A program made the translations under genes and the position numbers. A stretch of 62,629 nucleotides of DNA, from positions 1 through 62,629 of the forward strand of contig NZ_JASJEB010000029.1 of assembly GCF_030064895.1 (NCBI RefSeq), in the 5' to 3' direction. The notes below the pieces were generated by a model. That model saw nothing but the letters and a program-made list of their open reading frames with translations, searched no databases and was not told the DNA's origin. Each line of letters begins with the position of its first letter. Position 1 is the first letter of the stretch. Below, piece after piece: positions 21,942-47,641 of this stretch. Source of the stretch: Crocosphaera sp. (lineage in GTDB: Bacteria; Cyanobacteriota; Cyanobacteriia; Cyanobacteriales; Microcystaceae).

Positions 21942-23090
21942 TCAATTCTCATAAAAACAACCATAAATATTAATACCATTTACCCATGTTTGAGTTACTT
22001 GGGGTAAGTTATTAACTATTTGTACTACAATTAAATCGGCTCTTTTCCCCACAGTAATGTTACCACGATCGCCTAATAAAAGTGCTTTGGCCGGATTAGC
22101 AGTGACAAGAGAAATGGCTTCTGGTAAGGTTAAATGGGCTAGGGTTGGCAGACGAAAAGCTGCGGTTAATAAAGTAGCTGGAGAGTAGTCAGAGCATAAA
22201 CAACTAGCAACATTATGGGTAATAGCTGTAATAGCTTTCATTGAACCACTTTGACTTTTACCCCGTAAAATATTGGGTGCGCCAAAAATAGTATTTAAAC
22301 CCATTTCAATTGCTTTTTGTGCAGTTTCTAAATTGATAGGAAATTCGCTAATTGTAATCCCTAGATTTGTCATTGTTTCTATTCTTTCTTGTGTATCATC
22401 ATCATGGGAAGCAATAGCTACATTATGCAAATGAGCTTTAGTTACAAGGGTTTTAATTCTTTCTTGGGCCCCTTGTGCATTCTCTAATTTTTTGGCTACC
22501 ATTACATCAGTTTCAGACTCAGTTTTTTTATAGGTATTTCTCAAATAATCTCGATACGCTTGTAAGTCTTTAAATTGTCCTTGTCCTGGTGTATGATCCA
22601 TTAAAGAGAATAAATGCACACTATCTTCTCCTAATAAGTCTAAGAGAATGGGTAAACTGGTAGTATCGGTAATTTCATAACGACAATGAACCCGATTATC
22701 TACTAAGGCAAATGGTTGATATTGATGAATTTTTCTAACAATTTCTGCTGCCATTTCATTGTTTCTTACTCCTAATTCTTCATGAGCAAAAGAAATACTA
22801 TGAAACGGTGTTGTAATACCAGCGATCGCATTTTTTCTATCAATTTGAGCTATGGCAAAATCCATAGGAAAAAATGTATTAGCCCTGGGTTCAATTTCTT
22901 TTTCTATGGCATCACAATGAGCATCAATCATCCCCGGCATTAAATATTGTCCCTGTAAATTAATTTCTTCTACATTAGTAGGTATATCAGGATTAATTGC
23001 AGTGATTATTCCATCTTCAATTAGAAGAGAAGCAGATTCTAATACTTGATCTTTGAGAATAATTTGAGCATTTGTAAAGTAAGTTTTCAT
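21942..23090 (-). CDS. phnM: Ribose 1-methylphosphonate 5-triphosphate diphosphatase (PhnM), copy 1
   Basis: A 382-residue amidohydrolase-fold enzyme. Metal-site motifs are PGMIDAHCDAIEKEIEPRANTFFPMD (HxD), DHTPGQGQFKDL, ASHDDDTQERIE and LCSDYSPATLL, the PhnM pattern. It removes pyrophosphate from the 5-triphosphate produced by PhnGHI and PhnL, giving the PhnJ substrate. It is 19 bp after phnL and last in the minus-strand run. A second phnM on the + strand is at 30255; its first motif is HGDAFE rather than HCDAIE, so the two have diverged. Confidence 0.92.
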   Translation of the reverse strand: MKTYFTNAQIILKDQVLESASLLIEDGIITAINPDIPTNVEEINLQGQYLMPGMIDAHCDAIEKEIEPRANTFFPMDFAIAQIDRKNAIAGITTPFHSISFAHEELGVRNNEMAAEIVRKIHQYQPFALVDNRVHCRYEITDTTSLPILLDLLGEDSVHLFSLMDHTPGQGQFKDLQAYRDYLRNTYKKTESETDVMVAKKLENAQGAQERIKTLVTKAHLHNVAIASHDDDTQERIETMTNLGITISEFPINLETAQKAIEMGLNTIFGAPNILRGKSQSGSMKAITAITHNVASCLCSDYSPATLLTAAFRLPTLAHLTLPEAISLVTANPAKALLLGDRGNITVGKRADLIVVQIVNNLPQVTQTWVNGINIYGCFYEN

Positions 23091-23109: not shown

Positions 23110-23847
23110 TTAATTAGTTTTTACTGACTCAAAACTTCGCTCTTTTATCTTAATATCTTCAGGAGATAAATAAACCTCAAAATCAGCTAGACGTGATACT
23201 AAATCAGGATCATGGAGAATAATTAAAATTGCTGTTCCAGATGTTTTAATCCGTTCAATAACTTTAACAACTCTTTCCACGGAAGCTTTATCTAAACTAG
23301 CTGTAGGTTCATCCAAAAGTAAAAGACGAGGTGAAAAAATCATCCCTCTAGCAATATTTACTCGTTGTTTTTCTCCCCCTGAAAACGTACTTGGTGACAA
23401 ATTCCATAATCTTTCAGGGAGTTTTATTTCTGCTAAGAGATGTTTGGTTTTTTCCCTAGCTTCTTTTTGATTCATACCTAAATCAAAGAGAGGTTTAGCT
23501 ACTACATCTATGGTAGATTGTCTGGGTAAACAGTGCAAAAATTGAGTAACAAAACTAATATCAGTCTTGCGTAAACGAATCATTTCTTGTTCCGTTACCT
23601 TTGCTAAATCTAGATATTCTCCGTCTTTTGTATAATAAAAAATAGAACCTTGGCTTGCTAAATAAGTCCCATAAACACATTTTAAAATACTTGATTTTCC
23701 GACACCAGAATCTCCTGTTATCGCCGTGATTTTTCCAGAAAAAGCCTCCATAGAAACATTTTGAGCCGAGGGAATAGATTTTTGTTGTTCATGGAGAAAA
23801 AAGCGTTTACTTAAGTTCTCAATTTTTAAAATAAGATGATTTGACAT
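23110..23847 (-). CDS. phnL: C-P lyase subunit, ABC-type ATPase (PhnL)
   Basis: A 245-residue ABC ATPase. Walker A is GDSGVGKSS (residues 43-51), the signature is STFSGGEKQRVNIARG and Walker B LLLLDEP is followed by TASLDK. The short Q-loop region FVTQFLHCLPRQST is characteristic of PhnL, which works inside the C-P lyase complex rather than in transport. It runs directly into phnM. Upstream it is separated from phnK by a membrane NACHT gene, so it may depend on read-through or on its own promoter. Confidence 0.9.
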   Translation of the reverse strand: MSNHLILKIENLSKRFFLHEQQKSIPSAQNVSMEAFSGKITAITGDSGVGKSSILKCVYGTYLASQGSIFYYTKDGEYLDLAKVTEQEMIRLRKTDISFVTQFLHCLPRQSTIDVVAKPLFDLGMNQKEAREKTKHLLAEIKLPERLWNLSPSTFSGGEKQRVNIARGMIFSPRLLLLDEPTASLDKASVERVVKVIERIKTSGTAILIILHDPDLVSRLADFEVYLSPEDIKIKERSFESVKTN

Positions 23848-24100
23848 GATGATTTTGTTTAAACTGAAGTAAGGTGGGGAGTGTATCAGCCTACAAATGT
23901 TTCGTATTTAATTATACCTATAGCAGTATAAGAATTAGTTAAGACATTTTCTTATCTTTAATTATCATTCCGAAGAAACGAACAATCTCTGTAATAGCCT
24001 AATTTTTAGAGCGAGGTATAAATTCTCTTTATAAAAACAACTTCTAACTTCTGACTTCTGTGCGATAGCGCCGGAGCGGAGTGAGGAACTTCTGACTTCG

Positions 24101-26674
24101 TTAAGACTCCTCCCTTTCTCTGTTTAATTGTTTACCTAATTCACTAAAGAATTGATCTGACCAAGTTTCACATAAATCTAGTCTTATTTTTTGTAAATAA
24201 GTAAAAACTTTTCCTGCTAAAGAAGGATTTTTTGCTACAATAATAAACATTAGTTTTTTGGCTTCTTCTGGTTCAGTAAAGTTATTCAAACTAAATTCTA
24301 ATAAAGAACGCCAATTTTCATCAATGGTTAAACTATCATCTTTAATCAAGTTTTGCCACCGAGGAGTAAAATAGAGAGAAGCTAAATAAGCACGAATTAA
24401 ATCATGCTGAAACTGATAGTTATCTGTCCGTTGAACTAAGAATTTTTGCTTTACTAATTCATTTCTTAATTCATCGGTAACTTTTGGTTCTGACTGATTG
24501 AAAAATTGATTGTGATTGATAAGCATATTATAAGATTTTTTGCATAAAATATCATCAAAATCTGATTTTCCGTTATTTTCCCATTCATCAAAAATAGGTT
24601 TTAAAATGGCTTGATATAAAGCTTGTTGAGATTGGGGTAAGGGTTGATTATTTTTAATTAGTTCAATTGCAAATTCTAAGTTTTGAGGAATTTTATAGAG
24701 TTCATAGCTCGATTCATTAAATTGTTTTAAGACATCTTGGGTTTTTGCTTCTCCTAATTTTTTTTGTAGTAAATGTTTAATTTCTATTTTTCCTAATGAG
24801 GATAACTGAACAACGGGTAAATTAAAATTAGCATAAGTTTCTTGAGAACTTAAACAAAAATAGTTTGCTTGGCAATTTTGATCAACAAAAGTATTAATTT
24901 TTCTTCTATCTGCTTCGCTTAATTCATTTAATCCATCCAAAAATATTAAAAAATTTCCTTGTTTTAAAAACCATGCAGTTAAATTTTTATCGAATAATCT
25001 ACCGTATTTTTCTAATTGACTTTGAAACATTTTTTCTGGTTCATTGCCTTGATAACGAGAGAGAGGAATAAAAACAGGAATAATATTCTTAGGGAGTAAA
25101 TGATATGTTTTATCGCTATAATAATCCGTTAAATATTGAAAATAAGATGTTTTACCAATACCCGAACGACCTTGTAAAAAGATAGTGCGTTTTTGTTGAA
25201 TTTTCTCGCCAAAATTATTAGGAATAAAATCGACCGATGGCACAATAAATTTATCTCTCCATTGACTAAACTGTTCATCTTGACGTAGTTGTTTCAGATA
25301 GCGTCGTAAAACATAATTACGTAAAGGAGGAATGAAAGAAAGAGCAATAGGAATGAAGCCTAAAGAAGCATATTTACGCAGAAAAGGATTCATTAATAAG
25401 TCATGGAAAAATTGATTATAAGGGGCAATAATTAGAGCAAACCCACTGCCCACCCAACTAGCAATGACAATAATAATTGCACCAATACCTGTAAAAATTT
25501 CCCAACCACCAACAAAAATAGTTTGGGCTTTGACTTCATAAATATTACCCCATTTATCTCTTACGCTAATATAAAGTTTACGTTGTCCATTACCAATTGA
25601 TTCTTCTTTAATGTCATTGTCTAGTGCTTGATATCTTTCTTCTTTTAACTGATCATTAAAATATGATTCTTTATCATATTCAAAAATAACCTCAAATTCA
25701 CGAGGAAATGATTTAGGGTAAGGAGCATTATTATCATTACAATTAGAATCTGTATAGGTATAACAAGGTTTCAGTGTAAGGGGACTAATATAACCAATAT
25801 TAGGCAATATATTTTTAAGCAAATTAACAAATATTCCTGCGTTTCCACCACTTTCTATAGCAACATCAATTTTGACATCTTCATCATAGCGATAGAATCC
25901 TTGATCTGTTCTTAGCCAAAGTTGCCCCTGTTTATCTTCGTATATCTCATAAACATCTAATCCTTGTGTTGAGTTGATGAGAATAGCTTGATTATTCTCT
26001 GAGTCGAGGCGATAAAATCCTTGATCTGTTCCTAGCCAAAGTTGCCCTTGTTTATCTTCGTATATCGTAGGAAAAGATAATCCTTGTGTTGAGTCGATGA
26101 GAATAGCTTGATTATTCTCTGAGTCGAGGCGATAAACTCCTTGATTTGTTATTAGCCAAAGTTGCCCTTGTTTATCTTCGTATATCGTAGGAAAAGATAA
26201 TCCTTGTGTTGAGTCGATGAGAATAGCTTGATTATTTTCTGAGTCGAGGCGATAAACTCCTTGATTTGTTATTAGCCAAAATTGCCCCTGTTTATCTTCG
26301 TATATCCTATGAACATATAATCCTTGTGTTGAGTCGATGAGAATAGCTTGATTATTTTCTGAGTCGAGGCGATAAAATCCTTGATTTGTACCTAGCCAAA
26401 ATTGCCCCTGTTTATCTTCGTATATCCTATGAACATATAATCCTTGTGTTGAGTCGATGAGAATAGCTTGATTATTCTCTGAGTCGAGGCGATAAAATTC
26501 TCTTTGATATGTTATTAGCCAAAGTTGCCCCTGTTTATCTTCGTATATCCTATGAACATCTAATGGTTTATCAGGAATTCGTACTACTATTTGAGCGTTA
26601 ATAGGCCAAAAACTATCAAAGGTTATGGTTACTATTACGGCATAAATTATCTGTTTGATGGAACGGAGAATCAT
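24101..26674 (-). CDS. Membrane-spanning propeller-NACHT NTPase
   Basis: An 857-residue protein. Residues 1-28 look like a signal peptide (cut after INA). Residues 38-264 are six 40-residue repeats of the two-component-regulator propeller type, consensus IYEDKQGQLWLxTxQGxYRLD. A periplasmic region follows (YxxD, a Cys pair, DKWGN). Residues about 393-450 hold hydrophobic membrane segments. Then comes a cytoplasmic NACHT-like NTPase: Walker A GRSGIGKTSYF near residue 501, Walker B FLIFLDGLNEL near 573, winged-helix-like VQRTDNYQFQHDLIRAYLASLYF, then helical repeats. The layout suggests sensing outside and NTPase switching inside. It sits between phnK and phnL but is not a C-P lyase component. 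No separate effector domain is visible. Confidence 0.82.
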   Translation of the reverse strand: MILRSIKQIIYAVIVTITFDSFWPINAQIVVRIPDKPLDVHRIYEDKQGQLWLITYQREFYRLDSENNQAILIDSTQGLYVHRIYEDKQGQFWLGTNQGFYRLDSENNQAILIDSTQGLYVHRIYEDKQGQFWLITNQGVYRLDSENNQAILIDSTQGLSFPTIYEDKQGQLWLITNQGVYRLDSENNQAILIDSTQGLSFPTIYEDKQGQLWLGTDQGFYRLDSENNQAILINSTQGLDVYEIYEDKQGQLWLRTDQGFYRYDEDVKIDVAIESGGNAGIFVNLLKNILPNIGYISPLTLKPCYTYTDSNCNDNNAPYPKSFPREFEVIFEYDKESYFNDQLKEERYQALDNDIKEESIGNGQRKLYISVRDKWGNIYEVKAQTIFVGGWEIFTGIGAIIIVIASWVGSGFALIIAPYNQFFHDLLMNPFLRKYASLGFIPIALSFIPPLRNYVLRRYLKQLRQDEQFSQWRDKFIVPSVDFIPNNFGEKIQQKRTIFLQGRSGIGKTSYFQYLTDYYSDKTYHLLPKNIIPVFIPLSRYQGNEPEKMFQSQLEKYGRLFDKNLTAWFLKQGNFLIFLDGLNELSEADRRKINTFVDQNCQANYFCLSSQETYANFNLPVVQLSSLGKIEIKHLLQKKLGEAKTQDVLKQFNESSYELYKIPQNLEFAIELIKNNQPLPQSQQALYQAILKPIFDEWENNGKSDFDDILCKKSYNMLINHNQFFNQSEPKVTDELRNELVKQKFLVQRTDNYQFQHDLIRAYLASLYFTPRWQNLIKDDSLTIDENWRSLLEFSLNNFTEPEEAKKLMFIIVAKNPSLAGKVFTYLQKIRLDLCETWSDQFFSELGKQLNREREES
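25883..26563 (-). repeat. Six near-identical 120-bp repeats (propeller blades)
   Basis: The repeats encode residues 38-264 of the propeller-NACHT protein. Units 2-5 are exactly 120 bp; unit 1 has one extra codon. Differences cluster at three places: four residues before IYEDK (DVHR, YVHR, SFPT, DVYE), the residue pattern WL-I/G/R-T-N/D, and F/V before YR. The rest is nearly invariant even at third codon positions, which points to recent duplication or gene conversion with change focused on surface loops. Confidence 0.95.
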
Positions 26675-26918: not shown

Positions 26919-27761
26919 TTAATATAAAGCAGATGAAACTAATTGTTGGGTATATTGATGTTGAGGATCTTCTAATACTTGATCCGTTAAACCTGATTCA
27001 ACAATTCGACCCTGTTTCATAATTAAAGTACGATGAGCTAACAATTTAATCACCCCTAAATCGTGAGAAACGACAATCATTGAAACATTTAATTGTTGTT
27101 GTAATTGTAGAATTAAATCAAGAATACGCGCTTGTACAGATAAATCTAATCCCGTTGTTACCTCATCTAAAAGCAGTAATGGGGGTTCGGTTGCTAAAGC
27201 ACAAGCAATTTGTACCCGTTGCTGCATTCCCCCAGAAAATTGACCCGGTAATTGATCCATTCTTGGTATCGGAAACTCTGTCCGATCCAATAATTCTCTG
27301 GCTTTTTGACGAATTTTAGCGTATTCAAAACAATCATTCATCAATAATCTTTCAGCAATATTCCCACCAGCAGAAACCTTAAAATTCAAACCTAAATGGG
27401 GATTTTGATAAACCATTCCCAGTTTATGATGGCGTAACCATCTTCCTTGAGCAGCATTGAGTTGAAAGAGGTCATAAGCTTCCCCTTGATCCCAAAAAAT
27501 CCCTTTTCCAGAGGTGGGTTTTTCATCAAAATAGAGCATTTTAACCAGAGTTGATTTACCACTCCCAGACTCTCCCATAATGCCTAAAATTTCCCCTGGA
27601 TACAGATCAAAATTGAGGTTATCAGTGGCGACAATACTGCCACAATGGGGACAAATATTTCTGTTATATTCTGCTCCCGTGGATGTCAGACATTGAGAGC
27701 AACCGTCACCATAAATTTTAGTTAATTCCCTAACTTCTAGTATTTTTTCCATAAGTTTCAA
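26919..27761 (-). CDS. phnK: C-P lyase subunit, ABC-type ATPase (PhnK)
   Basis: A 280-residue ABC ATPase. Walker A is GESGSGKST, the signature is GQFSGGMQQRVQIACAL and Walker B is LLLLDEV with TTGLDLSVQARILD. After the first strand it carries a four-cysteine insertion (GCSQCLTSTG...NICPHCGS) found in many non-enteric PhnK proteins and probably a metal site. PhnK docks on the PhnGHIJ core in the C-P lyase complex. Start is ATG 27761, with ATG 27752 (MEKILEV) also possible. Between it and phnJ lies an approximately 140-bp gap largely made of repeat DNA. Confidence 0.92.
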   Translation of the reverse strand: MKLMEKILEVRELTKIYGDGCSQCLTSTGAEYNRNICPHCGSIVATDNLNFDLYPGEILGIMGESGSGKSTLVKMLYFDEKPTSGKGIFWDQGEAYDLFQLNAAQGRWLRHHKLGMVYQNPHLGLNFKVSAGGNIAERLLMNDCFEYAKIRQKARELLDRTEFPIPRMDQLPGQFSGGMQQRVQIACALATEPPLLLLDEVTTGLDLSVQARILDLILQLQQQLNVSMIVVSHDLGVIKLLAHRTLIMKQGRIVESGLTDQVLEDPQHQYTQQLVSSALY

Positions 27762-30254: not shown

Positions 30255-31400
30255 ATGGATAAATTTGCGATTGAAGGAACAGATATTCTTACCCCTGATG
30301 GTTGGGTCAAAAATGGCACAGTTATCATTGAAAACGGGAAATTCTTGGCTATAGATGAAACTATTACTAAGAAATTGCCTACAATTGACGCAAAAGGGTT
30401 ATTAATGCTCCCTGGAATCGTAGATATACATGGAGATGCGTTTGAAAGAGCGATCGCCCCACGGCCTGGATCACATTTTCCTTTAAAGATGGGAATATTA
30501 GAAAACGATCGCCATTTAATTGCTTCAGGAATCACAACTTTTTTTTATTCTATTACTGATTCTTATGAACCGGGTTTACGCAGTCGGGAAACAGCAAGAG
30601 AAATTATTGATTTTGTTTTAGGAGAAGGCAAAAATAGTTTAAAAACTGATAGTAGAATTCATATCCGTCATGAACAAGCGAATACAGATGAATATGAGGA
30701 ATTATGTGATTGGTTGAAACAGAGAAAAATTGATTTATTGTCACTCAATGATCATCTTCCTCCTGTTGGAGATGACTATAAATTGAACCGCCATCTTAAC
30801 TCTTTACGACGCAGACATAAAATGAGTGATGAGGAATTACAGAAGCTAATAAAAACAGCTTTAAATAATCAAGAAAAAGGGTTACAACAGGTGGAAGAAT
30901 TAGTTAGTTTAGCCCATGATCATCATATTCCCCTTGCATCTCACGATGATGATACAGAAGCTAAAGTACAATTAAGTGCTAAATGGGGCGTTTCTATCGC
31001 TGAATTCCCTGCTAACGTGGATATTGCTGCTAAATCGAGAGATTATGGGGCTTCAGTTTTAATGGGTGCGCCTAATCTCATCCGAGGGGGTTCTCATGTG
31101 GGTTGGATGAGTGTTGAAATGGCAGCTAAGAAGGGTGTTGTAGATTGTTTGTGTTCTGACTATCATTATCCTTCTCTATTTTCTGCCCCTTTTAAATTAA
31201 CTGAAATGGGAATTATGTCCTTTGAGGAAGCTTGGAAATTAGTTTCTACTTATCCAGCAGAAGCATCAGGAATAGGAGAGAGTAAAGGAAAAATTGCTAA
31301 AGGTTTTGATGCCGATTTTCTCTTAATTCAAAGCAATAATATTCATCTCAATAGTATTAAGTCTGTTTATATCAAAGGAAAAGAAGTAGCACGTTATTAA
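30255..31400 (+). CDS. phnM: Ribose 1-methylphosphonate 5-triphosphate diphosphatase (PhnM), copy 2
   Basis: A 381-residue PhnM. Metal motifs are PGIVDIHGDAFERAIAPRPGSHFP, NDHLPPVGDDYKLN, ASHDDDTEAKV and LCSDYHYPSLF. It is the only plus-strand gene in the phosphonate region and is divergent from phnI. It is about 40 percent similar by eye to copy 1 and keeps all the metal residues, so both may be active. It could act on a different phosphonate, or be a second acquisition. The RPGSHFP motif is closer to well-studied PhnM than copy 1. Confidence 0.93.
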   Translation: MDKFAIEGTDILTPDGWVKNGTVIIENGKFLAIDETITKKLPTIDAKGLLMLPGIVDIHGDAFERAIAPRPGSHFPLKMGILENDRHLIASGITTFFYSITDSYEPGLRSRETAREIIDFVLGEGKNSLKTDSRIHIRHEQANTDEYEELCDWLKQRKIDLLSLNDHLPPVGDDYKLNRHLNSLRRRHKMSDEELQKLIKTALNNQEKGLQQVEELVSLAHDHHIPLASHDDDTEAKVQLSAKWGVSIAEFPANVDIAAKSRDYGASVLMGAPNLIRGGSHVGWMSVEMAAKKGVVDCLCSDYHYPSLFSAPFKLTEMGIMSFEEAWKLVSTYPAEASGIGESKGKIAKGFDADFLLIQSNNIHLNSIKSVYIKGKEVARY

Positions 31401-34563: not shown

Positions 34564-37215
34564 TTACAAGTCTTTGCGCGAGAGAAGAATCACCGCACGA
34601 GAGAAGAATACCGGACCACGCGGCGGATTTGCTGGTAGGTGTCGTGGTGCTGGTAGGTGTCCCACTGGTGTAGTGTCTTGTAATTCCCAAGTGAGGTTTG
34701 AGTAACCAGTGTCTCCGACTTTTCTCCAACCGACGCGATCGCAAAACTCCTCCCAGATTTTTTTATTATACTGTCTTGTTCCACCAAGTTCATCCATATA
34801 GATTTTTTTCTGGACGCTGAAGCCAAATTTTCCCTTGCTGTAGTGTACCCACAGTTGATCAATGGTACGTAAGTCGTCACAGGGGAAGTTATTGATATCA
34901 GACTCCCTTAAGTATCCTTCAGACTCTCGGTTGGAAACTTGAAGCATAACGTTAGCAGTTTCTTGGTCAGCTTCTGCCCATTTTCCTGCTGCTAGATAAG
35001 CAGCAAGTTGACGATACTTAACATCAGGAATTAGCAATCGAACTAAGCGAATACCATTTTCAGAAAATTCCGAATCATCTGATATAGAAGAATGTTTTAA
35101 TTCTTCTTTTGATATCAATCTATAACAGGTTTCGAGGGTAGATTTTGTGCTATCCGACCGCTTTCGGATAAAATAATGAGCTTTTCTTGTGAGCCAATCA
35201 CAGAATTGATCTCTGGACTCCCAGTCATTTAAACTAACGTTTTTCTTACTATCTCCTGATTCAAATCTGGTCTCAAATTTTATTTTGTTTACTTCATCAT
35301 CTAGAAAAACTTGATACTCAGCATTGGTAATATAACTCTGAGCAATAACTAAATTCTCATCAATTTGTAAAAAGTTGGAATCGCTTAGGTTTCTAGCCAA
35401 GATGGCTTCTGAGGCTACTTTAAAAAGTTCGGGGTCAAGAGATTCTAAAGACTCATCTAGTCTGGTCTTGAGTTGTTGACGGATTTTAGCCTCAACTCTT
35501 AATGCTTCCTCATCACAGTCTAATGCTAGTTTGAGTGCCTTAACAGAGGTGGGATTATCTAAAGCAAATTGAATTAAATTTGTTGCATCACTTTGAGCCG
35601 CATAGAGACGAATCATTTCAGCACACCAAGGATTTTCAAACTTTTCAAGCAAAAGAGATTCTCCCTGTGATTCTTTGACTTCGGCTGCCGCTAGATACTC
35701 TTGAAAACTGAGATGAGCAAATTCATAATATCCTAATTCTTTCTCCACTAGCAGGCCATTAACTTCCTTAATTTGCTTCAAGAAATCCTCTGGAATTACG
35801 GTTTCATTAACACCTGATAGTTTTTCCTTGATTATTTCTGTTCCTTGAGTCAGTGTAAATTTGCGAGTTTCTCTCTGCATTAATTCTAGTGCTAACACCT
35901 GCAACACTGATTTGTTTTGTTCTCCTGTCAATGGAGTCTCAATTTTTTTTGCACTTTGTCTTGCACCTAGTAAGACATCACAGATTTTTTTATAGAGTTC
36001 TACTCTACGTCCAGGCAAAGCATCACCACAATAATGAACTGTAGCAATCATTGTCACCAAGAGAGGATTACTGGCCATCTGACAGATCGATGGATTTTTA
36101 ATGATTCGATCAATTAAATTATCTGCATTATCCTTAGCAACAGCTTCAACTGCGGGATCTAAACGACCTTGCCTCATGCGACACTCTGTTTGTAAATACC
36201 AACGATGAATAAACTGTTTAATCTGTTGTATGTTAAAAGACTTAACTTCTAATACAATCCCTATTGCTTCAAATAAATTACTGTCATAGCCATGAGGACG
36301 AGAAGTAAGCAGAAAAAGACACTGGCTGTATTGCTGTATTTGCTCATTAACCCACTTACTAACTTTCTCTCTGTCGGCAGCATTGGCAACTTCATCAAGT
36401 CCATCTAACATAACCAAACATTTACCTTTTTTTAGCCGTTGGGAGAACCAATGAGGGGGTGGTGTAAGTTTCTTGAATGCTGGCTGATTTTTAACTTGTG
36501 CATTAATCAGTTCCGGCAATGTAGGAGGGGAATTGCCGGTAATTTCTTTGTGCTGATTCCGTAAATAGAGAAGAATGGGAACTAAGTCAGGAGCTTTATA
36601 CTTTCGATGGGCTTTTTTTGCATAGGTTAGGGTTACTTTCTGCAACAATGTGGTTTTACCATACCCTGGTGGTGCCAGAATAGCAATGTGTTGATATGCA
36701 CGAATTTGAGAACTATTAGCTAAATAAGTCCAAATTTCTTGCTCCGAAGAGTCTTTCGTTTTTGGAATTAAGCTGTTATTAGCAACATTCCTGGGAATTT
36801 CTACTGCTAATTTTAGGGGAACAAAAACATCCTCTAAATCTAGCACAGGTAACCCAATCTTAAAGCCTTCGGTTTTAAAGTCGCGGTAGTAATCAAATAA
36901 ACTTTTCTTATACTGCTGTTCAAATCTAGACAACTTCCAGCGTACAGTTTTAGGGAAACGCTCAAATATAATATTAGCTAAAGCCTGAGCATACGTTTTT
37001 CCTCGCTGATTGACTTCCTTCTTAAATTCCTCCATAAAACCTCCGCTAAATGCCGTCCAGATGGCCAAGACGGCAGTTCCGGTGGACGAGAGAATGGTTT
37101 GAGATGTTATTCCTTGGTCTTGAAGCCAACAATAAGCTGTAAATCCTATCATCCCACCAGTAGGAGACCATTTCACTAAATCTTGTACCCACTTCCACTT
37201 TGGTTGTTCCTCCAT
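34564..37215 (-). CDS. NACHT NTPase fused to FGE-like and GUN4 domains
   Basis: An 883-residue protein. The N-terminus has two weak hydrophobic segments (residues 20-35 and 45-60). A helical linker leads to a NACHT NTPase: Walker A APPGYGKTTLL (181-191) and Walker B CLVMLDGLDEV near 265-275, followed by FLLTSRPHGYDS. Helical repeats follow (LGYYEFAHLSFQEYLAAAEV). Residues about 620-725 resemble a degenerate formylglycine-generating-enzyme fold (SYITNAEYQVFL, WESRDQFCDWL, CYRLISKEE). Residues 726-855 are a GUN4 domain (YLAAGKWAEADQETANVML, PCDDLRTIDQLWVHYSKGKFGFS). GUN4 normally binds chlorophyll precursors. The last 25 residues come from small direct repeats. NLR-like signalling is inferred. 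Confidence 0.85.
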   Translation of the reverse strand: MEEQPKWKWVQDLVKWSPTGGMIGFTAYCWLQDQGITSQTILSSTGTAVLAIWTAFSGGFMEEFKKEVNQRGKTYAQALANIIFERFPKTVRWKLSRFEQQYKKSLFDYYRDFKTEGFKIGLPVLDLEDVFVPLKLAVEIPRNVANNSLIPKTKDSSEQEIWTYLANSSQIRAYQHIAILAPPGYGKTTLLQKVTLTYAKKAHRKYKAPDLVPILLYLRNQHKEITGNSPPTLPELINAQVKNQPAFKKLTPPPHWFSQRLKKGKCLVMLDGLDEVANAADREKVSKWVNEQIQQYSQCLFLLTSRPHGYDSNLFEAIGIVLEVKSFNIQQIKQFIHRWYLQTECRMRQGRLDPAVEAVAKDNADNLIDRIIKNPSICQMASNPLLVTMIATVHYCGDALPGRRVELYKKICDVLLGARQSAKKIETPLTGEQNKSVLQVLALELMQRETRKFTLTQGTEIIKEKLSGVNETVIPEDFLKQIKEVNGLLVEKELGYYEFAHLSFQEYLAAAEVKESQGESLLLEKFENPWCAEMIRLYAAQSDATNLIQFALDNPTSVKALKLALDCDEEALRVEAKIRQQLKTRLDESLESLDPELFKVASEAILARNLSDSNFLQIDENLVIAQSYITNAEYQVFLDDEVNKIKFETRFESGDSKKNVSLNDWESRDQFCDWLTRKAHYFIRKRSDSTKSTLETCYRLISKEELKHSSISDDSEFSENGIRLVRLLIPDVKYRQLAAYLAAGKWAEADQETANVMLQVSNRESEGYLRESDINNFPCDDLRTIDQLWVHYSKGKFGFSVQKKIYMDELGGTRQYNKKIWEEFCDRVGWRKVGDTGYSNLTWELQDTTPVGHLPAPRHLPANPPRGPVFFSRAVILLSRKDL

Positions 37216-44859: not shown

Positions 44860-46218
44860 ATGACTTCGCTTTCACCCCATCGTGCTACTAATTTAAAGGA
44901 AGCGTATCGTATCTGTAACCCTGAACCTTTAACGGGGGAAGATATTGATAGATATTATGTTGATTTATCTTCCGTTCGTAAGACAGAAACTATACAAAAG
45001 ATCAATACAAAATTAGATTTTCTTGAACCAGAAGAATTTTGTACAATTTTATTTACAGGACATCGTGGTTGTGGAAAAAGTACGGAGTTAAGAAGACTTG
45101 AGAAACAGTTAAAATCAGAATATTATATTGTTTATTTAGAGGCGGATGTTGAATTAGATATTAACGACGCAGAATACACTGATTTGTATTTACTGATTAT
45201 CAAAAAAGTTGCAGACGAATTATATAAAATAGGAGCAAAATTTGATGATAAACTTTTAAGTCAATTTGAATCTTGGTTTAAGGATATTACCGAAGAAACG
45301 GAAGAAAGTGTGGAAAAATCTGTCAGTATTCAAGTTGATGCTGAAGCAGGTTTTGAAATACCGTTTATTTCTAAATTGTTATCAAAAGTATTAGCAAGAA
45401 TTAGAGGATCTCAAAAACAAAAACAAACCATTAGACAAACGTTACAAAAAGATATTAGTCGCTTACAAGCAGACATTAATCTTTTGTTAGCTGATGCTTT
45501 TAAGAAATTGAGACAAAAAGAACCGCAATATGAAAAAGGATTTTTAATTATCTTAGATAATTTAGATCGCATTCCTCCTAATGTTGGTCAACATCTATTT
45601 TTTGATTATGCTGCTCAATTACAAGCATTAAATACAACAATTATTTATACGGTTCCTATTTCTGCCGTTTATTCTGATAAAAATTTGAATAAAATCTTTG
45701 GGAGTTCTAATATTATGCCGATGGTTAATATTTATGAATTTAATGCTGGAGAATGGGACTTAGATTATAAGCAAGATAAGTTAGAAAGTTTAGTAAATTT
45801 AATCGAACAACGTGTTAATATTGATGCAGTTTTTGAGTCCCGTCAACAATTATTAGACTTAGTAAAAGCCAGTGGTGGTCATGTTCGTCAGCTAATGCAA
45901 ATGACGGCAAATGCTTGTTTAACTGCTGCTGGAAGGAATCATAATAAAGTAATGGCTGAGGATGTTACTTATGTTGTTAATCAAGAACAATTTAACTTTG
46001 AAAGAATTAACTTAAATGAATATTATCCTCTGTTAGCAAAAGTTTGTTTAAGTAAAAATATTAATAAGGATGAAATTGGACAATTATTACTCTTTAATTT
46101 ATCAGTCTTGGAATATAATGGTAATAACCGATGGAATTATATTAACCCTGTTTTAAAACAAAGTTCTCTTTTTCAGGAAGCATTAAAAAATGAACAGCAA
46201 AACCCAGAAAATATCTAA
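44860..46218 (+). CDS. P-loop ATPase of an ATPase-TPR gene pair
   Basis: A 452-residue soluble AAA/STAND-like NTPase. It begins with RICNPEPLTGEDIDRYYVDLSSVR, then Walker A GHRGCGKST (67-75), an acidic strand (YIVYLEADVELDIND), a long charged coiled region (150-220) and Walker B FLIILDNLDRI (228-238). The region DLVKASGGHVRQLMQM resembles a sensor-2/lid helix. No membrane segment is seen. It overlaps the next gene by 29 bases, so the two products are made together and probably interact. The function is not known; pairs of this type occur in other cyanobacteria as far as I can recall. Confidence 0.78.
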   Translation: MTSLSPHRATNLKEAYRICNPEPLTGEDIDRYYVDLSSVRKTETIQKINTKLDFLEPEEFCTILFTGHRGCGKSTELRRLEKQLKSEYYIVYLEADVELDINDAEYTDLYLLIIKKVADELYKIGAKFDDKLLSQFESWFKDITEETEESVEKSVSIQVDAEAGFEIPFISKLLSKVLARIRGSQKQKQTIRQTLQKDISRLQADINLLLADAFKKLRQKEPQYEKGFLIILDNLDRIPPNVGQHLFFDYAAQLQALNTTIIYTVPISAVYSDKNLNKIFGSSNIMPMVNIYEFNAGEWDLDYKQDKLESLVNLIEQRVNIDAVFESRQQLLDLVKASGGHVRQLMQMTANACLTAAGRNHNKVMAEDVTYVVNQEQFNFERINLNEYYPLLAKVCLSKNINKDEIGQLLLFNLSVLEYNGNNRWNYINPVLKQSSLFQEALKNEQQNPENI

Positions 46219-47641
46219 TATTAATCAAGAAAAAGAGTCATTTTTAAACATTAATCAACAGACTTTTACTGAACTGTTGACATTTATCGATTTTGCTGAT
46301 GAGCGATTAAATATTGGCTTTGTAGAAATCAAATTTTCCCAAGATAGAGATATTTTAATTGATGCTTTACTTGAACATCCTGACTGTAATAATATTCAAT
46401 TTGAAATATTAGATTTTTCTGATCCTAGTCTTCGTTTTTTAAGGGATGAATTAGTTACTGCATTAAAACAGATTAATATTCAACAGAATAAAAAATTAAT
46501 TTTACTAATTACTGGGTTAGAAAAATCTATTGGTATTGTAGAAGAATATCCTTCTGTATTGACTAATCTTAATTTTGTACGAGATGATTTAAGAACAAGT
46601 ATACCTCATCCTATACTATTATTTTTACCAGATTATGCCTTAACTCGTTTGGCAAAATATGCACCTGATTTTTGGGCATGGAGGAGAAAAGTTTTTACTT
46701 TTAAAACAAATCGTAAGAATTTAATTACTAATAGTCGTAATATTATTTTTTCTAATAATACTATTAACAATTTAGACTCACAAAAAAAACAAGCAAGAAT
46801 TGAACAATTATTGAACTTATTAAATGAATATAATACGTCTCCTGACGAAAAAACGAAAAATGATTTATTAATCATTGGTAATATTTATAATCAATTAGGT
46901 AATACTTATCAACCTTTAGGACAATATCAAAAAGCGATTATCTTTCATCAACAAGCTTCAGAGATTTCTAGAAAAATAGGAGAGAGGGGAAGAGAAGCCA
47001 TTTCTTTAAGCAATTTAGGCATTGCTTATCATGCTTTAGGACAGTACCAACAAGCTATAATCTATTATCAACAAGCTTTGGAGATTTATAGAGAAATAGG
47101 AAATAGACAAAGCGAAGGAAATGCTTTAGGCAATTTAGGCACTGCTTATGATTCTTTAGGAAAACACAAAAAAGCCATAACCTATTATCAACAAGCTTTA
47201 GAGATTTATAGAGACATTGGGAATAAACAAGGAGAAGGGAATACTTTAAGCAATTTAGGCACTGCTTATGATTCTTTAGGAGAATACCAAAAAGCGATAA
47301 CCTATTATAAACAACATTTAAACATTTCTAGAGAAATAGGAGATAAAGAAGGAGAAGGTATGTCTTTATGCGGTTTAGGCAATACTTATAACTTTTTAAG
47401 ACAACACGAAGAAGCTATTAATTATCATCAAGAAGCTTTAAATATTTTCAAAAGAACTGGAAATAAACTAGAAGAAGCTATTACTAACTTTAATTTAGGC
47501 TTATCTTTTAAAGATATTCAACGTCATGATGATGCAATGGAAGCCTTTCGTAATGCACGTAAATTATATCAAGACATGGGACTGGATAAATGTGTTGAAA
47601 ATTGCGACGATGCAATTAACATTCTAGAAAATCATGTTTAA
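46190..47641 (+). CDS. TPR protein with NTPase-like N-terminal domain, partner of the ATPase
   Basis: A 483-residue protein. Residues 1-190 look like a P-loop domain without Walker A, but with a hydrophobic strand LILLITGLEKSIG and later PHPILLFLPDYALTRLAKYAPDFWAWRRKVF. Residues about 215-470 contain six to seven TPRs, four of the 40-residue kinesin-light-chain type (LGxAYxxLGxYxxAIxYYQQALEIxREIGxxxxEG), with a 120-bp DNA period at about 46980-47400. The TPR part may be a binding surface and the N-domain may contact the upstream ATPase. No enzyme effector is recognised. Confidence 0.78.
   Translation: MNSKTQKISNINQEKESFLNINQQTFTELLTFIDFADERLNIGFVEIKFSQDRDILIDALLEHPDCNNIQFEILDFSDPSLRFLRDELVTALKQINIQQNKKLILLITGLEKSIGIVEEYPSVLTNLNFVRDDLRTSIPHPILLFLPDYALTRLAKYAPDFWAWRRKVFTFKTNRKNLITNSRNIIFSNNTINNLDSQKKQARIEQLLNLLNEYNTSPDEKTKNDLLIIGNIYNQLGNTYQPLGQYQKAIIFHQQASEISRKIGERGREAISLSNLGIAYHALGQYQQAIIYYQQALEIYREIGNRQSEGNALGNLGTAYDSLGKHKKAITYYQQALEIYRDIGNKQGEGNTLSNLGTAYDSLGEYQKAITYYKQHLNISREIGDKEGEGMSLCGLGNTYNFLRQHEEAINYHQEALNIFKRTGNKLEEAITNFNLGLSFKDIQRHDDAMEAFRNARKLYQDMGLDKCVENCDDAINILENHV

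Follow-up and report, generated by a model that had tools for sequence, protein, structure and literature searches.

Bacterial NLR-like proteins are thought of mostly as cytoplasmic sensors, and the known members of the bacterial NACHT antiphage proteins, including bNACHT, are cytoplasmic. Reg_prop β-propellers occur in the extracytoplasmic part of Bacteroides HTCS sensors, which contain two larger propellers. In the fungal non-self receptors HNWD, HET-E and HET-D, a NACHT NTPase is combined with WD40 repeats that are subject to concerted evolution and group by species, and in Podospora four codons located in the d-a loop and the b-c turn are positively selected, according to the available parts of that report (PMC1805685). 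The available sections of a further study describe WRAP, a cyanobacterial STAND-WD40 protein with highly repetitive blades of variable number, whose WD40 domain is C-terminal and which is transcriptionally coupled to a TIR-STAND gene (PMC9218822).

The window analysed here, a stretch of 62,629 nucleotides, belongs to a Crocosphaera-genus genome and encodes a protein of 857 residues in which a signal peptide is followed by six Reg_prop repeats, a domain of about 125 residues, a transmembrane segment and a NACHT NTPase. The sequence-only reading had placed, between phnK and phnL, a membrane protein with a six-repeat propeller on the outside and a NACHT NTPase on the inside. The open reading frame, the Pfam matches, the repeat array and the hydrophobicity confirm this organization, and the orientation in the membrane is a prediction. 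We consider, with a probability of roughly 0.55, that the protein is an NLR-like recognition receptor that spans the membrane and is encoded by a single gene, and that its repeat ectodomain undergoes both homogenisation and diversification of the binding face. The features are as follows:

24101..26674, minus strand: transmembrane Reg_prop-NACHT protein, 857 residues (open reading frame with ATG start; Pfam; intact orthologue of 74% identity)
26591..26674, minus strand: signal-peptide-like N-terminus, residues 1–28 (sequence; Kyte-Doolittle 1.59)
25883..26563, minus strand: six Reg_prop blades (tandem array, Pfam, AlphaFold strands; matches to periplasmic sensors)
26441-26563, 26321-26440, 26201-26320, 26081-26200, 25961-26080 and 25883-25960, minus strand: the individual blades, in order
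25508..25882, minus strand: 125-residue domain, predicted extracytoplasmic (both orthologues keep two cysteines; dN/dS 0.89)
25190..25507, minus strand: membrane-spanning segment plus a conserved juxtamembrane stretch (MNPFLRKYASLGFIPIALSFIPPLRNYVLRR; similar to the HEAT-type TM-NACHT family)
24104..25189, minus strand: NACHT NTPase half (Walker A 25145-25171, Walker B 24923-24952; SSQ)
26919..27761, minus strand: phnK, flanking gene outside the system (TIGR02323, E 1.6e-70, below the model cut-off)
23110..23847, minus strand: phnL, flanking gene outside the system (TIGR02324, above cut-off)
23877..23969, no strand assigned: flank sequence common to the phnK-phnL gap of genome G003, which lacks the receptor gene

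Six stretches match Reg_prop PF07494 (E 1.3e-27, 92.8 bits against a cut-off of 20.4), and NACHT PF05729 is found at E 2.5e-4 with 21.4–23.0 bits, under the Pfam cut-off of 26.7. The Walker A (GRSGIGKTS) and Walker B (FLIFLDGLNE) motifs are kept in the orthologue, and the arginine of the T[CS]R-like sensor motif of NACHT is replaced by Q (SSQ) in the window protein. The 125-residue domain has no Pfam match above cut-off and no NCBIfam family. The likeness to bacterial NACHT antiphage proteins consists of the NACHT itself and a weak similarity to NCBIfam EruA (E 1.3e-6), whose 26.8 bits lie far under the cut-off of 1000 bits; the PADLOC models give no match to the protein at E≤1. No RNA family reaches its gathering score in the window. 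Plasmid copies were rejected, as in none of the 48 matched records did a single place cover 80% of the query; among the 20 plasmid matches listed, 19 are annotated as propeller-domain protein, histidine kinase or diguanylate cyclase, and the remaining one lacks an annotated feature.

The signal-peptide cleavage site, placed by eye, falls between PINA and Q in the window protein and between PVNA and Q in the orthologue. The protein has one strong hydrophobic segment (residues 385–420, Kyte-Doolittle up to 2.4) and a weaker second one (residues 438–456, 1.32). The signal-peptide-like N-terminus together with the one strong segment suggests that the propeller is outside and the NACHT inside. This topology is unproven because of the weaker segment, and the NACHT would be outside if both hydrophobic segments after the signal peptide span the membrane. 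In the HEAT-type relatives described below, the hydrophobicity of the two segments is roughly the same. The AlphaFold model of the propeller part has four strands per blade with a pLDDT of about 65–85, and the propeller part of the orthologue modelled alone reaches 72.7. The full-length model, computed from an alignment of two sequences, has a mean pLDDT of 46.6 and is poor beyond the propeller.

The tandem array at 25889-26564 has a period of 120 bp with 5.6 copies, 93% matches and a score of 1101, and consists of five full repeats and a sixth with a divergent last strand; if the genome was put together from short reads, the array could be wrongly assembled. Units 1–5 share a mean pairwise DNA identity of 0.93 (0.90–0.97), and 10 of the 40 residue columns vary among them, one through unit 1 only. 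Four variable columns are located where the d-a loop ends and strand A starts (YVHR / SFPT / DVHR), another four in the b-c turn and in or after the terminal part of strand B, and the remaining two elsewhere; the face to which these residues belong was deduced from the strand order, independently of positions in the model. The near-identity of the repeats thus stands as first described, and the variation that had been assigned to exactly three clustered positions falls instead into two main groups of columns. Across the four successive units 2–5, the d-a and b-c loop types occur in each of their four possible combinations. The units therefore probably recombine, with exchange taking place within the array.

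The sole orthologue found (L034/L038), in a genome set with one genome per species, is an intact protein of 952 residues with eight blades against six in the window protein, so that copy number differs between the two. In the tree of repeat units, window units 1–5 fall in a clade with a support of 0.999 that also takes in window unit 6 and its counterpart, orthologue unit 8, but none of orthologue units 1–7. The terminal units, window 6 and orthologue 8, pair across species at 1.000, and are placed inside the 0.999 clade with low support. The unit tree and the mosaic units bear out the homogenisation of the repeats that had been proposed, and support a grouping of the inner repeats by species, with recombination inside the array. 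The protein thus resembles the fungal HNWD receptors, as far as the available text describes them, in its NACHT, its near-identical propeller repeats, the grouping by species and the variation in the d-a loop and the b-c turn. It differs in having Reg_prop repeats, which precede a membrane segment, in the absence of a HET domain among its Pfam matches, and in that positive selection at the loop sites is unproven in the window array. With WRAP, in the same partial sense, it shares a STAND ATPase and highly repetitive blades of variable number in cyanobacteria. Unlike in WRAP, the propeller is of the Reg_prop class, is N-terminal and lies behind a signal peptide, and the window protein is without a recognised partner.

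Framework codons of units 1–5 are almost invariant (pN 0.014), and the loops, which were chosen post hoc, have a pN of 0.224; the corresponding pN/pS values are 4.69 in the loops and 0.21 elsewhere. Overall, pN/pS is 1.15, and a two-window scan for clustering of the variable residues gives p=0.20. For the top loops, p is 0.16 with one residue on either side and 0.008 with two. In the orthologue, loops and the rest do not contrast (pN/pS 0.74 versus 0.68). Taken alone, the window array gives a weak indication of clustering. The proposed diversification at binding-surface positions is suggestive and unproven in this array, whereas the HEAT-type relatives described below support it well. Between the two orthologues, dN/dS is 0.89 for ectodomain residues 265–389 and 0.32 for residues 461–857 (Fisher p=0.015 on rounded counts).

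These values bear on an alternative in which the blades were recently amplified without any recognition function and their differences are drift tolerated on loops. The overall pN/pS, the scan and the lack of contrast in the orthologue would agree with it, as would the available account of recent propeller amplification as widespread, in all major propeller lineages (PMC9218822). The gap between framework and loops, defined post hoc as it is, speaks against drift, as do the same dynamics in the HEAT-type relatives, where pN exceeds pS at the same five columns in six of eight arrays. We regard this alternative as unlikely.

The best sequence and structural matches of the propeller are periplasmic sensors, among them BT4663, BT3049 and BT4673, which are HTCS sensors with a Reg_prop propeller. 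Among proteins of solved structure, BT4663, which senses heparin and heparan sulphate, and other periplasmic HTCS sensors stand nearest to the propeller. Such relatives favour a reading in which the propeller, as in hybrid two-component systems, senses a nutrient, that is, a small molecule or a glycan, and the NACHT is a metabolic signalling NTPase. The window protein differs from these sensors in having six blades and a NACHT in place of the histidine kinase. In the Pfam and NCBIfam searches of it, histidine kinase, receiver and DNA-binding domains all failed to reach the cut-off and a Y_Y_Y domain went undetected, and near-identical mosaic blades would be unexpected in a conserved sensor. 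A nutrient sensor is therefore improbable.

The receptor gene lies on the same strand as phnK and phnL, between them, and the sequence-only reading had considered it either an intruder in a metabolic operon or a regulator of it. As a regulator, it would sense phosphonates for the C-P lyase operon, and its same-strand position would agree with such a function. The related genomes G003, G004 and G005 possess phnI, phnJ, phnK, phnL and phnM (the phnM of G004 runs off its contig) and have no receptor gene. The genome of the orthologue, G008, which is 91% complete, has no match to phnI or phnL, and on its contig pieces of phnK and phnM alone remain beside the intact gene. The gene is thus separable from the phn genes, its location among them looks incidental, and the HEAT-type relatives occur in varied contexts. 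The distribution of the gene relative to the phn genes supports an intruder and leads us to reject the operon regulator, which we consider very improbable. At the insertion, a search for a mobile-element signature found short repeats within each flank only, none of them decisive.

The membrane-proximal stretch and the NTPase motifs of the window protein match a cyanobacterial family organized as signal peptide, HEAT array, transmembrane segment and NACHT, one member of which is encoded in the same genome. The layout, the juxtamembrane stretch and the motifs GxSGhGK, DGLNE and S/T-Q are common to both forms, and several HEAT-type proteins likewise have near-identical repeats with few variable positions. 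The difference is the propeller, which takes the place of the HEAT solenoid. An HMM built from 22 HEAT-type proteins, using their cytoplasmic halves, gives 47 bits for the orthologue, 44 for the window protein and 29 for the best among the other ORFs supplied. An HMM restricted to the juxtamembrane stretch of these 22, with the propeller pair left out, detects both members of the pair (window protein E 3.1e-5, orthologue 9.6e-4), against 0.044 for the best of 600 shuffled sequences and 0.041 for the best among ORFs of 25 other loci. Profile comparison (A3-A5) gives a match from the transmembrane segment through the NACHT (E 1.1e-14), whereas the comparison with other NACHTs (A6) covers the NTPase only.

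Motifs were compared in ORFs with readable Walker A and B, which left out, among others, L003 and L004 (other NACHTs) and L121 and L126 (HEAT type). The 22 readable other NACHT ORFs include none with GxSG[IL]GK, none with S/T-Q and one with DGLNE, and all 22 retain the sensor arginine; among the 22 HEAT-type rows, 20 have DGLNE and all have TQ. For the NACHT part, profile scores are 150 with other cyanobacterial NACHTs versus 112 with the HEAT type, and a poorly resolved NTPase tree with long branches does not group the propeller pair with the HEAT family. We infer that the propeller form and this family share an ancestor. PADLOC models match four HEAT-type halves weakly (best E 3.7e-4). No account of the family was found in the open-licence literature searched, which does not show that it is unpublished, and the available passages on cyanobacterial NACHT/STAND proteins do not describe it (PMC7159879). 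The same literature gave no papers on Reg_prop joined to NACHT, Reg_prop in cyanobacteria, hypervariable HEAT-like repeats in cyanobacteria or EruA with NACHT, and nothing on topic for transmembrane bNACHT with phage.

Of 19 distinct HEAT loci, the eight with at least four usable 35-residue units, each from a different genome, were tested; L112, L114, L118, L119, L121, L130, L138, L139, L140, L142 and L156 (n=11) had fewer. The repeats in these eight arrays are near-identical except mainly on one face of a helix, as judged from the sequence and the alphaRep alignment. Hypervariable columns {2,4,7,8,11}, defined on L113, hold in the seven other arrays (p 0.0002–0.0022, in another run up to 0.0040). 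At these columns pN exceeds pS in six arrays, and pS exceeds pN in L122 and L127. The HEAT paralogue from the genome of the window protein, L126, has six units with a period of 37 residues and was tested apart (p=0.022; pN/pS 0.26/0.20 at hot and 0.10/0.08 at cold columns, ratios without contrast).

The best PDB matches are alphaRep binders (E 5.5e-26), which are engineered and have a repeat period of 31 residues, shorter than the 35 of the natural arrays. They are artificial proteins of the same HEAT repeat type with six randomised positions, as given in the available part of their description (PMC3754942). Columns {2,4,7,8,11} cover four of these six, and, array by array, the top five columns by variability include three (three arrays), four (two arrays) or five (three arrays) of them. 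The hypervariable HEAT columns thus largely coincide with the positions randomised in alphaRep.

For the recognition receptor that we favour, the repeat ectodomain, a Reg_prop propeller in the window protein and a HEAT solenoid in the relatives examined, would bind a molecule in the periplasm or at the surface via its variable face. The transmembrane segment would relay this binding to the NACHT NTPase in the cytoplasm, and the NTPase would switch and oligomerise. The array would evolve by amplification and by exchange between units, leaving the framework uniform while residues of specificity are reshuffled or replaced. Because neither an effector domain nor a partner gene was found, our guess is that the conserved hydrophobic juxtamembrane segment delivers the output, which would take effect at the membrane. 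In 12 HEAT-type loci no neighbour family other than the receptor is found in more than three: one cluster is common to three loci, and the others to at most two.

With its output committed, this best explanation becomes one in which the oligomerised receptor permeabilises the inner membrane via the second hydrophobic segment and causes death. The 22 aligned HEAT-type proteins conserve the juxtamembrane segment, which can also be recognised in the propeller pair, and no other effector domain was found. Its conservation could mean anchoring or coupling only, and NACHT-driven membrane disruption seems doubtful.

If real, the recognition receptor would be the bacterial equivalent of receptors for recognition at the cell surface, joining a rapidly renewed ectodomain, a membrane segment and an NLR NTPase. 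A tentative extension, at rather less than even odds, is that cyanobacterial transmembrane NLR-like proteins are single-gene surface receptors with swappable ectodomain types, whose outward arrays are natural binder libraries diversified at an alphaRep-like paratope. They would be a natural parallel to the alphaRep design; the variable columns of the natural arrays would predict the binding face, and the arrays could serve as soluble binders.

The open reading frame at 24101–26674 (−), on the 62,629-base contig G000:C148 of the 5.5-Mb genome, encodes an 857-aa product with a signal-peptide-like N-terminus and six Reg_prop repeats of 40–41 aa each. The repeats are followed by a 125-aa stretch for which Pfam and NCBIfam searches returned no family above cut-off, a long hydrophobic segment (residues 385–420) with a second, weaker one (residues 438–456), and a NACHT NTPase (Pfam) that forms the last part of the protein. 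The AlphaFold model shows four strands per repeat (confidence about 65–85), with little modelled besides. Among solved structures, those most similar in sequence are periplasmic sensors from hybrid two-component systems of Bacteroides (best E 2e-19); the same sensors are closest in fold comparison, with TM-scores that are low because the remaining model is poor. PADLOC gave no match to the protein, and NCBIfam weakly matches it to the antiphage NACHT EruA (E 1.3e-6, far under cut-off), which is only a hint. A Reg_prop histidine kinase whose sequence looks Bacteroidota-like was also found in a same-genus relative (L036, G005:C175), on a contig that may be contamination.

The sequence-only reading had described near-identical repeats with clustered differences, and this observation is real: units 1–5 have a mean DNA identity of 93% and 10 variable residue columns, four of them where the d–a loop ends and strand A starts, and four spread over the end of strand B, the b–c turn and the residues after it. 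Units 2–5 display all four combinations of loop types (YVHR+G..F, YVHR+I..V, SFPT+I..V and SFPT+G..F). The loop types are several bases apart, so the mixed combinations are most simply explained by exchange between units. The sole full-length relative found in 59 close genomes, 388 genomes of the order and a named genome collection is the orthologue in the same-genus relative G008, a protein of 952 aa with eight repeats and 74% identity. Its units 1–7 share 75% base identity with one another and 73% with window units 1–5. In the unit tree, a clade with 0.999 support unites window units 1–5 with the two terminal units, window unit 6 and orthologue unit 8, and leaves orthologue units 1–7 outside; the terminal two pair at 1.000 and are placed within the clade at low support (0.476). 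This pattern is the one expected if homogenisation spared one end of the array, the terminal unit being a mosaic. Tandem repeats also occur elsewhere in the window: a 120-bp array with 79% matches (46905–47447) lies inside a TPR protein gene (46190–47641) that adjoins a KAP/AAA NTPase gene (44860–46218), heptanucleotide repeats (CCGAACT, GGAGTTC and others) occupy many intergenic sites, and an octamer array spans 1–109.

A bias of the variation towards binding-surface positions, which had also been proposed, is weak in the window array alone. A hypothesis-free two-window scan of the variable columns gave p=0.20; top-face loops extended by ±1 residue hold five of the 10 variable columns within 13 of the 40 columns (p=0.16), and by ±2 residues, eight within 17 (p=0.008). 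The pN/pS ratio of the array is 4.69 in the loops and 0.21 elsewhere, for a loop set picked after the data were seen, and the orthologue units show no such loop contrast (0.74 and 0.68). Between the two proteins, dN/dS is 0.32 at residues 461–857 and 0.89 at the predicted extracytoplasmic domain 265–389, and the substitution contrast of the ectodomain with residues 390–857 has a Fisher p of 0.015 on rounded counts. The variation of the window array is perhaps located at a binding face.

The gene had been read as either an intruder in the C-P lyase operon or a regulator of it. The surrounding genes include the following:
21942–23090 (−), phnM-type gene flanking the C-P lyase genes
24101–26674 (−), the Reg_prop–NACHT (putative receptor) gene, between phnK and phnL
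30255–31400 (+), phnM-type gene on the other flank
34564–37215 (−), second NACHT gene (NACHT-GUN4, 883 aa), flanked by phn genes and phnC/phnD-like transporter genes; a NACHT-GUN4 paralogue is found in locus L004
phnI and phnL are present in four of the nine genus genomes (two of the nine are <86% complete and one 89%), and three of these (G003, G004 and G005) lack the putative receptor gene. The distance between phnK and phnL, 3.07 kb in the window, is about 530 bp in G003 and about 25 bp in both G004 and G005. Both insertion flanks have matching sequence in G003, which may thus have lost the gene. A search of G008 for phnI and phnL found no match, and next to its intact orthologue lie three phn remnants: 57 bp from the start of phnK, the end of phnK together with spacer sequence, and a phnM fragment of 59 residues. 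The simplest account of these remnants is that the gene was already at this site in the ancestor and survived the loss of the operon. The phn genes occur without this gene in G003–G005, and the gene occurs without phnI and phnL in G008, which makes a role as phn regulator very unlikely; the intruder reading is supported, and the phn location looks incidental.

A query with residues 265–495 recovered two more proteins, matching in the membrane-proximal part, both organized as signal peptide–HEAT repeats–TM–NACHT. A family profile of four cytoplasmic halves (threshold E≤1e-60) places members in 24 of 338 class genomes (counted from the match listing) and 15 of 373 phylum genomes, with eight common to both lists and a total of 31 that includes the window genome and two profile sources. 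For the 25 loci fetched, with reading frames cut at stops, HEAT repeats were confirmed by Pfam in two and assigned by eye in the other in-frame ectodomains (for L118–L120 on part of their sequence); L116, L124, L126 (second ORF) and L131 have little or no ectodomain in frame. A hydrophobic signal-like start is present in 18 of the 20 family ORFs longer than 700 aa, the exceptions being L129, whose gene is interrupted, and L119, which the end of its contig truncates. L126 (G000:C149:1800–5006) is a HEAT-type paralogue in the window's own genome, split into two ORFs, with near-identical repeats of 37 aa. The same genome encodes a 707-aa signal peptide–short ectodomain–TM–NACHT protein (L002, G000:C57; membrane parts by eye) with ordinary NACHT motifs, and in L153 (G142:C1) pieces of a HEAT-type gene lie on either side of an opposite-strand 408-aa ORF, possibly an insertion.

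When the cytoplasmic halves of 22 HEAT-type proteins are built into an HMM, the orthologue scores 47.1 bits and the window protein 44.1, against 29.3 for the best other ORF. A juxtamembrane HMM from the same proteins gives E 3.1e-5 for the window protein and 9.6e-4 for the orthologue (controls: 0.044 for the best of 600 shuffles, 0.041 for the best ORF from 25 other loci). Profile comparison of the propeller pair with the HEAT set spans the TM to the region past NACHT (E 1.1e-14), whereas that with other NACHTs covers the NTPase alone but scores higher (E 5.5e-20). The propeller pair and the HEAT set have GxSG[IL]GK, DGLNE and S/T-Q in common; 22 other readable NACHT ORFs carry a different Walker A, DxxDE (except L025, with DGLNE) and an arginine. 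The NTPase tree leaves the relation unsettled. The HMM, profile and motif results point to the same layout and, probably though not proven, to shared ancestry with an exchanged ectodomain. No recurrent partner gene was found among the neighbours of 12 family members, so the protein probably acts alone. PADLOC on HEAT-type halves returned weak matches only, for four halves.

The HEAT arrays were aligned in a register set on the conserved VR (columns 5–6). With the two-state block 28–30 set aside, variability in L113 is highest at five columns, 2, 4, 7, 8 and 11, of which 4, 7, 8 and 11 lie on one helix face. These five beat random column sets in all seven held-out arrays (p 0.0002–0.0040; the highest is L127 in one of two runs, the other ranging over 0.0002–0.0022), a result compatible with the ordinary excess of exposed over core variation in repeat proteins. 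A stronger sign of diversification is that pN exceeds pS at these columns in six arrays (L113, L115, L123, L129, L154 and L155; not L122 or L127); the other columns besides 28–30 show few residue changes (pN 0.00–0.09). The L115 array finds its best PDB matches in artificial alphaRep HEAT binders (4xl5, E 5.5e-26), with the VR motif in register. The six randomised alphaRep positions given in PMC3754942 (18, 19, 22, 23, 26 and 30) would, by this alignment, map to HEAT columns 3, 4, 7, 8, 11 and 15, at which pN is raised in eight of eight arrays (p≤0.032). The arrays are interrelated, so the results from one array to the next are not independent. The window protein seems to be a member of this family of HEAT-bearing putative receptors, or to be similar to it, and the family's arrays give the strongest support for diversification at a binding surface.
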